NCBI GenBank assembly: GCA_937132085.1
Contig: CAKZNV010000084.1
Coordinates: 1-51,495 of the forward strand
Length of the DNA stretch: 51,495 bases
Source of the DNA: an uncultured Rubritalea sp.
GTDB lineage: Bacteria > Verrucomicrobiota > Verrucomicrobiia > Verrucomicrobiales > Akkermansiaceae
Direction of reading: 5' to 3'
A model generated the notes under the pieces. It did no database searches. It was not told where the DNA came from and saw only the letters and a program-made list of their open reading frames with translations. Each line of letters begins with the position of its first letter. The stretch's first letter is position 1. Positions 36,030 through 42,659 of the stretch are shown one piece after another. The position numbers were made by a program, and so were the translations under genes.

Positions 36030-36137
36030 GTTGATGGTTATTCAACTCCAATTCATCGTATTCTTAGATCTGAGGTGAGAAGAAATTTCTCTGAAGACGT
36101 GGTTTTTTCTTGGAGGCAATACTCAGTAAGCTATGTA

Positions 36138-37055
36138 ATGAATCAGATGCACATTCACGATATTTTAAAATCTTCAGAACCAACATTCTCATTCGAGTTT
36201 TTCCCTCCTAGGTCGGAGCAAGCTGCGAATGATCTGTATGATGTTATTTCTGAGCTAGGTCGGTTTAATCCATCATTGGTCTCAGTGACCTATGGAGCGG
36301 GTGGAGCGACTCGTGAGCTAACGCATGATCTAGTGATCCGTATTAAAGAAACGATGCATGTGCCACCTGTGCCGCATCTCACCTGTATTGGTCATACTGA
36401 GGCAGAGATAGATGAAATTCTAGTGCGCTATGCAGAAGCTGGCGTAGGGAATATCCTAGCTCTCCGTGGTGATCCTCCGAGAGATCAGCCAGACTATGAT
36501 CGCTCCAATGACGACTTTAAGTATGCTTCTGAGCTAGTGACATTCATTAAGAAGTTTAACGAATCAGGCAGACACCCAGATCCACGAGGCTTCGGTATCG
36601 GAGTGGCTGGTTTCCCAGAAGGCCACCCTGCGACTCCTAACAGAGTGAAGGAAATGGAATTTCTCAGGGAGAAGGTGGATGCAGGTGCTGACTATATTTG
36701 CACTCAGATGTTTTTCGATAACCACGATTTTTTCGACTATCGTGAACGCTGTGAACTAGCTGGGATTACGATTCCAATCATCGCAGGTATCATGCCGGTG
36801 ACATCGCTCAAAGGAATGAACTTTATGGCAGGACTCGCTGAAGGTGCTCACTATCCAGCTAAGCTAATGCGTGCTCTTCAGCGTGTTGCAGGTGATGAGG
36901 CAGCAGTAGAGAGAGTGGGGATTCACTATTCATCTCAGCAGTGTTTGGAGCTTATTGACGCCGGTGTAGCAGGGATTCATTTCTATACTTTGAATAAAAG
37001 TAAGGCTACAATGGAAATTTATTCAAATTTAGGCTTGTCAATTTCTCAGAGCTAG
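36138..37055 (+). CDS. metF: 5,10-methylenetetrahydrofolate reductase MetF
   Basis: FAD enzyme that makes 5-methyltetrahydrofolate for methionine synthesis. I start at ATG 36138 (MNQMHIHDILK), as the GTG at 36075 adds a non-family leader; the product is 305 residues. Family motifs are SFEFFPPRSEQA, VSVTYGAGGATRE, HLTCIGHT, NILALRGDPPRD, FGIGVAGFPEGHP, the QMFFDNHDFFDY motif and a C-terminal GIHFYTLNKS. It stands alone with a tRNA gene 72 bases downstream. Confidence 0.93.
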   Translation: MNQMHIHDILKSSEPTFSFEFFPPRSEQAANDLYDVISELGRFNPSLVSVTYGAGGATRELTHDLVIRIKETMHVPPVPHLTCIGHTEAEIDEILVRYAEAGVGNILALRGDPPRDQPDYDRSNDDFKYASELVTFIKKFNESGRHPDPRGFGIGVAGFPEGHPATPNRVKEMEFLREKVDAGADYICTQMFFDNHDFFDYRERCELAGITIPIIAGIMPVTSLKGMNFMAGLAEGAHYPAKLMRALQRVAGDEAAVERVGIHYSSQQCLELIDAGVAGIHFYTLNKSKATMEIYSNLGLSISQS

Positions 37056-37127: not shown

Positions 37128-37201
37128 GCGGGTATAGCATAGTGGTAATGCACCAGCCTTCCAAGCTGAGTAGGAGAGTTCGATTCTCTCTACCCGCTCC
37201 A
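37128..37201 (+). tRNA. tRNA-Gly (anticodon UCC)
   Basis: A full cloverleaf: acceptor stem GCGGGTA/TACCCGC, D arm with AGTGGTAAT, anticodon loop CTTCCAA giving anticodon UCC (reads GGA/GGG), T arm with GTTCGATTC. The 3' CCA is encoded. Terminated by a hairpin 19 bases downstream. Confidence 0.95.
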
Positions 37202-37369: not shown

Positions 37370-38326
37370 ATGAATGTCATTATCGCCAGCCCTTATGCCA
37401 CGGACTCTCTGAATGGGAATACTGTGACTTCGCTGCGCATTGCTCGCTTACTAGAAGGAGCGGGGCATTCTGTGCAGATCATGCAGTCGTCTGAGATCTC
37501 GGCAGAGTCAGTGAAGACGAATGACGCCATGATCGCTCTACATGCTAAGAAGAGTGCGGGAGCGGCGCAGACATATTACGAAAATCATCCTGATGGTAAG
37601 CTTATCGTGTTTCTTACTGGGACAGACCTGTATGAAGATCTGCCAAACGGATGCCCTGAGTGTCTGGCTACGATGGATTCAGCAGATGCTCTAGTCGTGT
37701 CGCAATCAGCATCATTAGACTCGATTCCAGAAGAGTTCATCTCTAAAGCTCACGTGGTCTATAAGAGTATCGTGATGCCTGAACTAGCTGCTGATGTTGA
37801 GTTTGATGCCAATTTGTTTACAGTAGTAGGACATCTGAGGGCGGTGAAGCAGCCATTTATGATCGTGGAGGCTATGAAGCTATTAGGTGAATCTGTTAGA
37901 GTGAAGTCACTGGGGGGAGAGTTCGATGCTGGTAGTGCTGAGATAGCGAATGCTTATTCTCAGAATGATGCTCGATATGAATGGCTGGGTGAGTGTGACT
38001 ACGTAGAGGCTCTAAGCTGGATGCAGAGATCGGTAGCTACAGTGAATACGAGTTTGTCAGAAGGTGGAGCTAATTCCGTGGGGGAGTCTATCATGCTCGG
38101 AGTTCCAGTATTGGCTTCTAGAATTGAAGGTAATGTTGGGATGTTGGGGGACAGTTATAGTGGTTATTTCGCTGTAGATCAGCCTAGTGAACTAGCTAGC
38201 TTGATGCTGAGGGTGATGGAGGATGAGAAATTCTTGAATCAGCTGAAAACTGAAATTTTAGAGAGACAAGGCCACTTTGTTGCTGAGCGTGAACTAGAAG
38301 GCTGGTTGAATTTGTTAAAGAATTAA
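37370..38326 (+). CDS. SenB-type glycosyltransferase, TIGR04348 family
   Basis: I start at ATG 37370 (MNVIIASPYATDSLNGNTVTS), with GGAG (37362-37365) just upstream, rather than GTG 37343; 318 residues. It is a GT4-like (GT-B fold) enzyme of TIGR04348, the family that includes the selenosugar synthase SenB of selenoneine biosynthesis, which joins selenium from selenophosphate to a UDP-sugar. Family marks are GNTVTSLRIARLL, ALHAKKSA, LTGTDLYEDLP, VVGHLRAVKQP, YEWLGE, LSEGGANSVGESI and LGVPVLASRIEGNVGMLG. SenA (sulfoxide synthase) and SenC/SelD are not in the window, so the selenium role is inferred from family only. menA follows after 6 bases. Confidence 0.75.
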   Translation: MNVIIASPYATDSLNGNTVTSLRIARLLEGAGHSVQIMQSSEISAESVKTNDAMIALHAKKSAGAAQTYYENHPDGKLIVFLTGTDLYEDLPNGCPECLATMDSADALVVSQSASLDSIPEEFISKAHVVYKSIVMPELAADVEFDANLFTVVGHLRAVKQPFMIVEAMKLLGESVRVKSLGGEFDAGSAEIANAYSQNDARYEWLGECDYVEALSWMQRSVATVNTSLSEGGANSVGESIMLGVPVLASRIEGNVGMLGDSYSGYFAVDQPSELASLMLRVMEDEKFLNQLKTEILERQGHFVAERELEGWLNLLKN

Positions 38327-38332
38327 ACTAAG

Positions 38333-39208
38333 ATGAATATAAAATCTTATATCATGGCTGCTAGGCCTAAGACGTTACCAGCGGCGATTGTTCCGGTTTG
38401 GTTGGGTTGTGTGCTGGCGTATTATCTGACTGGTGTGTTCGATGCGTGGCTAGCGTTTTATACAGTGATGGGTGCTGTCTGGATTCAGATAGGGACGAAT
38501 TTTTTTAACGACGCGATTGACTCTGATAAAGGAGCAGATACTGAGAAGAGACTAGGGCCTGTTAGAGCGACAGCTAGCGGATTGCTTTCTAGAAATGTAG
38601 TGTATGGTTCCGCTGTAGTTTGTTTGTTGATCGCTGCTATATTTGGCTGGTTATTATTCGAGGCGAGAGGCTGGACGATGGTTGCGATAGGAATTCCTTC
38701 GCTCTATCTTTGTTATGGATACACGGGGGGACCTTGGCCGCTGGCGTATCGTGGGCTAGGTGAATTGTTCGTAGTGCTATTCTTCGGACTACTAGCGGTG
38801 ATGGGAACTGTCTTTGTTCAGACTGGTCAGTGGATGTGGGAGGCTGGACTGCTAGGTCTGCAAGCAGGATTGCTATCTGCGGTATTAATTTCTATCAATA
38901 ACCTACGTGATCGTGAGGAAGATACTGGGAATGATAAGCGCACGATGGCAGTGAAATTCGGTGAACCCATTGCCAAGAAATTTATCTTACTAGAGATCTT
39001 TCTTCCCGCGTTGCTCGGTATCGTTTGGATCTGGCGAGGAGATTGGCAGCTTGCTATCTGGGTGCTGCCTTACCTTCTACTAGGTGTGCTCATTTCTAGA
39101 GGAGTGATGAGCAATGTGCCGGGCAAGATCTACAACAAGTATCTAGCTCTTGGTGGTCTTCAGCTGATTGTCTTTGGTGTTTTATTCCACCTAGGGGCTA
39201 GTTGTTAG
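38333..39208 (+). CDS. menA: 1,4-dihydroxy-2-naphthoate polyprenyltransferase MenA
   Basis: UbiA-family membrane enzyme of 291 residues attaching a polyprenyl chain in menaquinone synthesis. The N-terminal AARPKTLPAAIVPVWLG and the two Asp-rich motifs, NFFNDAIDSDKGAD and NLRDREEDTGNDKRTMA, are the MenA signature and bind magnesium diphosphate. About eight membrane helices. It is tightly linked to the glycosyltransferase gene upstream (6 bases), though a shared function is not clear. Its 3' end overlaps the convergent PEP-CTERM gene by 4 bases. Confidence 0.9.
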   Translation: MNIKSYIMAARPKTLPAAIVPVWLGCVLAYYLTGVFDAWLAFYTVMGAVWIQIGTNFFNDAIDSDKGADTEKRLGPVRATASGLLSRNVVYGSAVVCLLIAAIFGWLLFEARGWTMVAIGIPSLYLCYGYTGGPWPLAYRGLGELFVVLFFGLLAVMGTVFVQTGQWMWEAGLLGLQAGLLSAVLISINNLRDREEDTGNDKRTMAVKFGEPIAKKFILLEIFLPALLGIVWIWRGDWQLAIWVLPYLLLGVLISRGVMSNVPGKIYNKYLALGGLQLIVFGVLFHLGASC

Positions 39209-40206
39209 CGTCTTCTTACGAATGCCGCCATGCATGCTGCGAGCGCTCCTAATAGAGTTGTGCTCGGTTCAGGAGTTGGCGTTGGGATGAATTGAGTGAA
39301 CTCAGGGTCCCAGTCAAAGTTTGCTGCTGAAGTCGGTAGGTTAGAGTCATTGATTGAATAACCAAAGGCTGGACGTAATACAGAGAGATCACTAAATGGG
39401 TTATTTAGAACAATGTTCGAGCTGACTAGTATTCTTGAACCAGTCACGACGTCGTCTTTAGATTTACCAGAAATACTGAGCCCAATGACATTGCTTTCCA
39501 ATCTGATTTTTCCGTCTCCAATATTGGTGTAGATCAGGTTGAGCAGATGGCTCTCTCCAGCTCCGAAGTAGATGCGGTCTAGAAGTCCGTTGGATAAAAT
39601 GATTGCTTCCGGACTAGTGTCCCAAGTTCCGTCAGTAGGATTAGAGTCGAGGCCATCTTGGTTGAAAATACCGAGATCATAGCTGATGCCGTCTGTCTTA
39701 GTGGCGTATTGTAAGAAGTCTGCTGCTACTACAAGACTTTCGTTTCCGGTTGAACCTAGCAGGCTAGCGTTGTTGCTGAGTCCGAATTGATACAGGTGAC
39801 CGCTTCCGCCACTGTCGATCTGAGATCCTAATGCGTGATACACTGTGTTGATCGTTGCTCTACTGCCTTTTTTAGAGAGGTCAAACACAGCGTTTGGATC
39901 CGTTCTTGTGTAGGCTCCGACCGTTCTAAAAGCTCGCATCATTCCACTAATACCATCGTATGGACCTTCCACAAAGTTCTGCTCAGCACCGTAGCTACTG
40001 GAGTGACCCTCTGGAACTTGGCCTATCAAAGAGTGTGCTCTAGTATAGGTGCCTCCACTCGTGTCCTCTAATCCTGCCCCCCATTCAGCTTCTTCATCTG
40101 TGATAGACCAATCATAAAAGCTCTGCGCTATGCTACTCTGGCTTAAGACTGAAAATATGGCTACACTACATAGTCCACTCGTAATCAAATTGGGGAATGA
40201 TTTCAT
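39205..40206 (-). CDS. PEP-CTERM sorting-domain exported protein
   Basis: A 333-residue exported protein with a signal peptide (about 1-27), a beta-rich middle (jelly-roll-like, no catalytic motif) and a C-terminal sorting tail: PTPEPSTTLLG, a hydrophobic helix, then VRRR. The PEP-CTERM/exosortase system cleaves such proteins and places them at the cell surface or in exopolysaccharide. No exosortase is in this window. The last four bases overlap the end of menA. The substrate or binding role is unknown. Confidence 0.85.
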   Translation of the reverse strand: MKSFPNLITSGLCSVAIFSVLSQSSIAQSFYDWSITDEEAEWGAGLEDTSGGTYTRAHSLIGQVPEGHSSSYGAEQNFVEGPYDGISGMMRAFRTVGAYTRTDPNAVFDLSKKGSRATINTVYHALGSQIDSGGSGHLYQFGLSNNASLLGSTGNESLVVAADFLQYATKTDGISYDLGIFNQDGLDSNPTDGTWDTSPEAIILSNGLLDRIYFGAGESHLLNLIYTNIGDGKIRLESNVIGLSISGKSKDDVVTGSRILVSSNIVLNNPFSDLSVLRPAFGYSINDSNLPTSAANFDWDPEFTQFIPTPTPEPSTTLLGALAACMAAFVRRR

Positions 40207-41206: not shown

Positions 41207-42364
41207 ATGGCTAAGGCAGATTATTACGAACTATTAGGCGTATCCAGAGATGCGGATGCATCAGTTATCAAGAAAGCTTATCGTAAGCTCGCGATCAAAT
41301 TTCATCCGGATAAGAATCCAGATGATGCTGCAGCTGAGGAAAAATTTAAAGAAATAGGTGAAGCTTATGAAGTGCTCAGTAATGAGGACAAGAAGGCAGC
41401 CTATGATCGCTATGGACATGCGGCCTTTGAAGGTGGTATGGGCGGCGGTGGCGGCGGCGGTGGCTTCCATGATGCATCAGACATTTTCTCTCAAGTATTC
41501 GGCGGCGCCTTTGGTGGCGGCGGTGGGTTTGAAGACTTCTTCGGCGGTGGCGGAAGAGGCCGCGGTAGAGCGAGAGCTAGCTCTAAGCGTCCAGGTAGCG
41601 ATCTAAGATATGATTTAGAAATCAAACTCGAAGAAGCTGCTGTAGGTGTAGAGAAAGAACTCGAAATCGAAAAAGAAGCAACTTGTAGCGGCTGTAGTGG
41701 TAAAGGCTCTAAGAGCAGTGCGGGAGCTAAATCTTGCACGACTTGTGGTGGAAGAGGAGCTGTGACTCGTCAGGCGGGAATCTTCGTCCAGCAGACTACT
41801 TGCCCAGAATGTAAAGGTGCAGGTGAAGTGATCGCTGATCCATGTGGTGAGTGTAAGGGACAAGGCACTAGCCAAGAAACTTCACGTATCAAAATCAGAA
41901 TTCCAGCTGGAGTTGACTCCGGCACACGTCTTCGCTCATCAGGTAATGGTGATGCAGGATTCCGCGGTGGCCCAGCAGGTGACCTCTACGTATTCATCCA
42001 CATCAAGGATCACGAGATCTTCGAGCGTGAAGGTGAGAATCTCTTCTGTGAAGTGCCGATGCCATTTGGTATCGCTGCTCTTGGTGGTGAACTAAAAGTG
42101 CCTACACTAGAAGGTAAATCATCGATCAAGATCCCAGCAGGAACACAAGGTGGCACAGTTTTCCGTCTCCGTGGAAAAGGTGTGAAAGACCTCTCATCTG
42201 GATATAAAGGTGATCTCCACGTAGAAGTAAAAGTGGAAGTTCCTACTAAACTAAACTCTGATCAAAAAGAAAAACTAGGTGAGTTCACTGACAGCATCGG
42301 TGAGAAAAACTCTCCTATGCAAGAGAGCTTCTTCCAGAAGGCTAAGAAGTTTTTTGATTTTTAG
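41207..42364 (+). CDS. dnaJ: Chaperone protein DnaJ
   Basis: Hsp40 co-chaperone of 385 residues that delivers substrates to DnaK and triggers ATP hydrolysis. The J domain (1-70) has the HPD motif in [10 protein letters not shown]; a Gly/Phe-rich linker with long glycine runs (about 80-125) follows; the zinc domain has four CxxCxGxG repeats ([32 protein letters not shown]); C-terminal substrate domains complete the protein. It is a full class A DnaJ. A small membrane protein gene follows after 22 bases. Confidence 0.95.
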
Positions 42365-42386
42365 TCAAACTAGACTAAATAGAGGC

Positions 42387-42659
42387 ATGAGAAATTTATC
42401 ACTAAACCTAGCAGCGATCATTTCCCTGCTAGGCATGGTGGTTTGCCTATGTATGGGAGTGGTGATCACGGCCTCTGGCGAAGCACTGTTTGGAATGACT
42501 TTGTTCTTTCTAGGCTCGCCAGTCTGCCTAGCGCTCGCTGTGGTGTTTGACTATGTGGCTGAGCAGCTACGTTTAGAGAGACGGACTGGAAGATTCCGCA
42601 GTAAGGCAGATGTGATCGATACTCCATGGGAGGATGACCCTGAGCATGGTGCCATTTAA
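42387..42659 (+). CDS. Small two-helix membrane protein
   Basis: The start at ATG 42387, with a good AGAGG site at 42381-42385, gives 90 residues. Two membrane helices (about 5-27 and 33-54) are followed by a basic, then acidic cytoplasmic tail (EQLRLERRTGRF ... PWEDDPEHGAI). No family recognised. Probably co-transcribed with grpE-dnaJ. Confidence 0.7.
   Translation: MRNLSLNLAAIISLLGMVVCLCMGVVITASGEALFGMTLFFLGSPVCLALAVVFDYVAEQLRLERRTGRFRSKADVIDTPWEDDPEHGAI

Follow-up and report, generated by a model that had tools for sequence, protein, structure and literature searches.

The stretch of DNA analysed here, referred to as the window, comprises 51,495 nucleotides of a contig from an uncultured marine Rubritalea sp., in which a metF-like gene, a tRNA-Gly gene, a senB-like gene and menA follow each other in this order (Table 1). 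The senB-like open reading frame is intact and runs from an ATG at 37370 over 318 codons to a stop codon ending at 38326. The start of menA at 38333 leaves a gap of 6 bases, in agreement with the earlier note on this DNA, and due to this short gap menA is perhaps co-transcribed with senB. A search for promoters and terminators at the senB locus yielded sites no more frequent than in shuffled sequences. An open reading frame on the opposite strand, for a protein with a PEP-CTERM sorting motif slightly below the Pfam cut-off, shares its last 4 bases with the 3' end of menA.

Table 1. Features in the neighbourhood of the senB-like gene, in positions of the window.
Feature	Position	Strand	Evidence and remarks
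Methylenetetrahydrofolate reductase (metF-like) ORF	36075..37055	+	TIGR00676 333.9 bits (cut-off 293.7); upstream neighbour
tRNA-Gly(TCC)	37128..37201	+	ARAGORN; between the metF-like gene and senB
senB-like gene (predicted clade B Se-glycosyltransferase)	37370..38326	+	318 aa; TIGR04348, PDB matches, model, residues
menA, 1,4-dihydroxy-2-naphthoate prenyltransferase	38333..39208	+	TIGR00751 148.9 bits (cut-off 102); UbiA
PEP-CTERM sorting-motif protein	39205..40206	-	20.3 bits versus Pfam cut-off of 20.7 bits
Small, probably membrane-bound protein	42279..42659		about 4 kb downstream of senB, after dnaJ

Among the NCBIfam models, TIGR04348 (SenB) is the top match of the window protein with 271 bits (E 1.1e-80), far ahead of the runner-up, a GPMC-system GT4 enzyme with 112 bits. 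The curated cut-off of TIGR04348 lies at 300 bits and is not reached. By this score the protein does not count as an equivalog of TIGR04348, nor does its gene belong to a sen cluster. SenBs encoded adjacent to SenA, e.g., those of G460 and G461 (278 bits), likewise stay under this cut-off. A profile search recognised a GT4-type domain, and phmmer against the PDB gave SenB only, with four distinct sequences reaching E <= 0.001. Here, the assignment to the SenB family made in the earlier note is upheld.

The AlphaFold2 model of the window protein (pLDDT 94.9, pTM 0.89, input alignment of 19 sequences) displays a predicted SenB-type GT-B fold. Rows 1-15 of a Foldseek search with this model are all SenB structures, and the six best entries in VIA-align are SenB as well, e.g., 8rz3 with a Z of 37.7 over 310 residues (2.7 A), followed by the next enzyme at Z 29.9. 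With the SenBs of Variovorax paradoxus and Ramlibacter (RsSenB), the window protein shares 33-35% identity and the full-length GT-B fold (Z 35-38). The GT4 enzymes BshA and MshA of bacillithiol and mycothiol synthesis have the GT-B fold in common with it, at 16-19% identity and Z 27-30. BshA and MshA use UDP-GlcNAc as donor, whose sugar serves as a handle for the thiol, and their acceptors are O-linked. The description that suits the window protein best is that of a SenB-like selenium glycosyltransferase from a clade unlinked to SenA, and the protein likely functions like SenB.

The genome to which the window belongs comprises 4.46 Mb on 254 contigs and is 98.7% complete. It contains a selD (373 bits) on a contig other than that of the window (L007:1486-2529), with one in-frame TGA located within a GGU motif near the N-terminus, which encodes selenocysteine at what we take to be the place of the catalytic Cys/Sec. 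A source of selenophosphate, a Sec-type SelD, is thus encoded in the genome. Together with a selA (503 bits), the genome shows two main marks of selenocysteine use. In the earlier note it was stated that no selenium gene is visible; this holds for the locus, since the whole-genome searches gave no match to selD, SenA or selA on the contig of the window, and does not hold for the genome. A hairpin 3' of the TGA of selD, considered as SECIS, is not unusual in comparison to shuffled sequences (z -1.24). No in-frame stop interrupts the SelDs detected in genera g3 and g4.

SenA was not found in this genome. Six matches were obtained with the SenA model, which also catches EgtB, and none of them spans the first 160 positions; the best reached 74.7 bits. 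This best candidate, 500 aa long and encoded on contig C107, turned out to be of the FGE-sulfatase type, gave no DinB match and was rejected, and the other five were dismissed on model coverage alone. The whole-genome search for selD and senA recommended in the earlier note thus returned the former, along with selA, and not the latter, and the senB of the window is not clustered with senA and senC/selD. The statement that neither SenA nor SenC stands next to senB proved correct for the whole contig. EgtD (PF10017), the source of hercynine, gave no match at E <= 1e-20 in any of the 260 genomes of the family set, the genome of the window included, in a search whose control gave a match in one of 14 control genomes.

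Within this family set (SenB at E <= 1e-25, selD and SenA at E <= 1e-40), SenB was found in 62, selD in 74 and SenA in 15 genomes. SenB and selD occur together in 54 genomes, SenB only in eight (five of these less than 90% complete), selD only in 20 and neither in 178. Accordingly, selD is present in 54/62 genomes with SenB and in 20/198 without. Since both genes are mostly co-inherited in a few genera, a genome-level p value overstates the evidence; on genus level, selD was found in all seven SenB genera and in three of the nine without SenB (p 0.01, one-sided Fisher test). The phylum, sampled evenly with 288 genomes, has SenB in two and selD in 22 of them. For the named SenB loci, selD and SenA were checked in the genomes of 49 of 78 loci. 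Here, selD was present in 46/49, namely in 24/26 Akkermansiaceae-type genomes, most or all of which also belong to the family set, and in 22/23 others. SenA (E <= 1e-30) was found in 24 of the 49, with five Planctomycete matches among them spanning the FGE part only (114-124 bits). The 23 genomes not of the Akkermansiaceae type include 15 with a full-length SenA and eight without, seven of which possess selD. Planctomycetes, genus g5 and some members of g159 likewise retain SenB without SenA.

A tree was calculated for 85 SenB proteins. The 61 family loci are all represented in it, and of the 61 loci L157-L217 it includes 23; the remainder of L148-L217, which are repeats of the family set or more, mostly Oxalobacteraceae, sen loci, stand outside the tree. 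It splits into clade A (42 rows) and clade B (43 rows) with a support of 100/98, and it is midpoint-rooted, leaving the order of the two states not polarised by it. Clade A contains all 23 SenBs with an adjacent SenA (Proteobacteria, Acidobacteria, Verrucomicrobiota), two rows with SenA elsewhere and 17 without SenA (six Planctomycetes, three from g5, seven from g159 and one proteobacterial MAG). Clade B is made up of the window protein, L157 and 41 further rows from Akkermansiaceae. Within clade B, senB adjoins senA in 0/43 cases, SenA is encoded elsewhere in 5/43 and was not found in 38/43, whereas selD is present in 38/43 genomes and occurs without SenA in 34/43. The SenA label requires at least 10 changes on the SenB tree. 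The family-tree placement proposed as a check in the earlier note therefore puts the window protein inside the SenB tree, in a SenA-unlinked clade of its own.

In contrast to the characterised SenBs of Variovorax paradoxus, Ramlibacter (RsSenB) and Comamonadaceae (CbSenB), the senB of the window lies outside any senABC cluster in a genome in which no SenA was found, its product scores below the TIGR04348 cut-off, carries EGGANS where SenB-like enzymes are reported to have a conserved EGGAHV motif, and falls in a clade apart from the SenA-adjacent SenBs. The senB-senA operons of Akkermansiaceae (e.g., G460 and G479) come from the same bacterial family and share the catalytic residues, whereas their SenBs belong to clade A and have SenA adjacent.

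In a study on Variovorax SenB, residues were probed by mutation (PMC10891094): N20, T23 and E231 are assigned to the binding of the donor and E239 to its UDP ribose, whereas N20, H58, R61, T83, T85 and R155 bind selenophosphate, and K158 acts in the cleavage of the Se-P bond. H235 touches C4 of the sugar. The equivalents in the window protein are N17, T20, E231 and E239, H58, K61, T83, T85 and R157, and K160, and V157 is likewise kept. Thus, all of N20, T23, T83, T85, R155, K158, E231 and E239 have an identical counterpart. The substitutions are R61 to K61 and H235 to N235, due to which the sugar preference may differ. Across the alignment, the equivalents of N20, R155, K158, E231 and E239 are identical in 85/85 aligned SenB proteins, and the position of H58 is occupied by N in 14/43 clade-B and 12/42 clade-A proteins. 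The position of H235 is N in all 43 proteins of clade B and mixed in clade A, in which the H of EGGAHV varies too.

A SenA far from senB is present in five clade-B genomes (G433, G486, G487, G490 and G493), each of which has a single SenB match (E <= 1e-25), in all cases of clade B. The five unlinked SenAs score 397-417 bits with the SenA model versus 265-280 bits with EgtB, and a tree of 35 proteins places them among the SenAs from senB-senA operons of Akkermansiaceae and apart from the EgtB-like paralogues. Scores and tree rule out for all five that they are misread EgtBs. Two scanned EgtB paralogues from Duganella-type genomes reach 558 and 570 bits for EgtB, and seven paralogues of this type group in a clade of their own (100/100). 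The DNA retrieved around the five unlinked SenAs contained no SenB-like sequence (best E 0.088). The simplest reading would be that SenA obtains its selenosugar from the clade-B SenB in these five genomes. For G486 this pairing is less secure, as the contig stops close to the end of its SenA, and selD was not detected in G493. Since these SenA genomes have only a clade-B SenB, clade B is probably able to make the selenosugar of SenA. SenA is found in 15/260 family genomes (L075-L079, L143-L147), yet EgtD in 0/260, and the product of the Akkermansiaceae SenA carriers is therefore not certain.

Clustering of the neighbouring genes covered 61 loci, i.e., 60 relatives and the window, with L119 (G462) left out, and revealed no partner gene common to the clade-B senB loci. 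Directly 3' of senB, menA occurs in one of the 61 loci, namely the window itself, and for this reason this neighbour means little; besides, a homologue of menA occurs at a greater distance from senB in L086. Within genus g160, cysS, senB and a gene for a NahK-type kinase form an operon with short overlaps or gaps in 16/16 clade-B loci (L121, L122, L125-L130, L132-L138, L140), and the overlap of cysS and senB amounts to 4 bases in 15/16. The kinase of L122 matches structures of N-acetylhexosamine 1-kinase with an E of 7e-77 and has a homologue in 16/16 loci. In g157, an alaS-like gene, recognised by eye, directly follows senB in 10/12 loci, and in Rubritalea metX directly precedes it in four. 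In G240, senB and a NahK homologue are separated by about 6 kb, which was considered too distant to mean much. On the 3' side of the g160 operon, 14/16 loci encode a homologous protein without a family (71-173 aa, cut by contig ends).

GlcNAc-1-phosphate is converted to UDP-GlcNAc. Because a 1-seleno-sugar has no anomeric hydroxyl, a NahK-type kinase would act on the freed hexosamine, and we infer that the substrate of the g160 kinase is the hexosamine set free when selenium leaves. UDP-GlcNAc is given as the preferred donor of SenB in PMC10891094.

From the observed family, fold, residues, genome content and tree position, a course of catalysis, a substrate, a product and its fate can be proposed. 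With good though not full confidence, we consider the window protein to be a SenA-independent SenB-type GT-B Se-glycosyltransferase, which by analogy would make a selenosugar from selenophosphate produced by SelD. Here, the selenocysteine-containing SelD of the genome would synthesise selenophosphate, which would be held, by analogy to Variovorax SenB, in an N-terminal pocket formed by N17, H58, T83, T85 and R157. Its selenium would attack C1 of a UDP-hexose with inversion, this donor probably being UDP-GlcNAc gripped by E231 and E239, and K160 would promote the attack of water, by which the Se-P bond would be cleaved and a free 1-seleno-sugar released. The selenosugar may be an end product or a selenium donor to another enzyme; since no SenA was found, it would not be passed to SenA in the organism of the window. 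The kept residues, the supply by SelD and SelA, the co-occurrence of SenB and selD and the pairing with SenA in five genomes support a SenB-type function. Against it stand the score below the cut-off, K61 and N235, the few co-inheritance events and the lack of a common partner gene.

The earlier note had left a choice between a selenosugar enzyme with partners elsewhere and a branch of the family using another nucleophile; the selenium supply elsewhere in the genome agrees with the former, and the latter is disfavoured. In such a branch, clade B would convert thiophosphate, phosphate or a small thiol into a thiosugar or sugar phosphate, and SelD would serve selenocysteine only. The score below the cut-off, N235 and K61 in place of H235 and R61, and the presence of SelA, by which SelD has another job and could be explained by selenocysteine alone, would all fit, as would the acceptance of thiophosphate by VpSenB, although with a 10-20-fold discrimination against it (PMC10702425). 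Nevertheless, SenB tracks selD across genomes, the residues of the selenophosphate pocket and of K158 are kept, clade B provides the sole SenB found in five SenA genomes, and with SelD and SelA elsewhere in the genome a non-selenium nucleophile is not needed, which makes this alternative unlikely. Even less probable is that SenB represents a remnant of a lost selenoneine pathway that is no longer of importance: SenA was indeed not found in 38/43 clade-B genomes, yet the senB match is without internal stop in 12/12 genomes of the genus of the window, and the key catalytic residues are fully conserved over a deep clade. The lowest probability is given to an ordinary GT4 enzyme tied to menA, which might glycosylate a menaquinone intermediate or an envelope lipid. 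Such a role would be in line with the 6-base gap and the GT4-type domain, whereas the direct linkage to menA is confined to the window among 61 loci, other GT4 enzymes stay at Z <= 30 versus 35-38 for the SenB structures, and the phmmer matches in the PDB are only SenB.

A further reading is a sub-case of the SenA-independent selenosugar synthesis preferred here, namely that the selenosugar feeds an enzyme other than SenA, e.g., a sulfoxide-synthase-like or selenium-transfer enzyme, which would yield a new selenometabolite. The retention of SenB and SelD without SenA in several lineages and the NahK-type kinase in the g160 operon, which fits a release and re-use of hexosamine, speak for it; clade B has no common neighbour, and no match to the SenA model, which also catches EgtB, spans the first 160 positions in the genome of the window. 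This sub-case is conceivable at somewhat under even chances. Slightly more credit, still short of an even chance, may be given to the idea that SelD and SenB suffice to make a seleno-hexosamine in Verrucomicrobiota and Planctomycetes, which would be a low-molecular-weight selenol or a carrier to a further enzyme, and that the NahK-type kinase in the overlapping operon of one genus re-phosphorylates the freed hexosamine.

SenB has been described in the setting of selenoneine synthesis. A deep SenB clade that retains the key catalytic residues and SelD, mostly without SenA, would imply a different purpose of selenosugar formation, and, if true, selenosugar synthesis would be a selenium trait of its own. 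In the titles and abstract openings of the papers listed, 20 of 160 in one of the searches, neither a SenB without SenA nor a SenB in Verrucomicrobia was mentioned; an earlier mention is possible in two publications, from Nature (2022) and Nature Chemistry (2024), which reportedly deal with the synthesis of selenoneine and ovoselenol. Rubritalea marina DSM 17716, R. profundi SAORIC-165 and Persicirhabdus sediminis KCTC 22039 are organisms in which a further selenium metabolite could be searched for.

Some minor observations concern the surroundings of senB in other lineages. The Planctomycete SenBs without SenA are those of L171, L176, L177, L180, L181 and L190, and SelD is present in 5/6 of the genomes; in four of these five, the open frame with SelD has a length of about 750 aa and thus points to a SelD fusion. 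In a neighbour view of seven loci, not including L190, L210, L154 and L156, five Planctomycete senB loci adjoin a transglutaminase-like protein, recognised by eye. Furthermore, six Rubritalea relatives (L082, L084, L085, L087-L089) encode directly 3' of senB a small, probably membrane-bound protein of 82-126 aa, the same type as listed for the window in Table 1.
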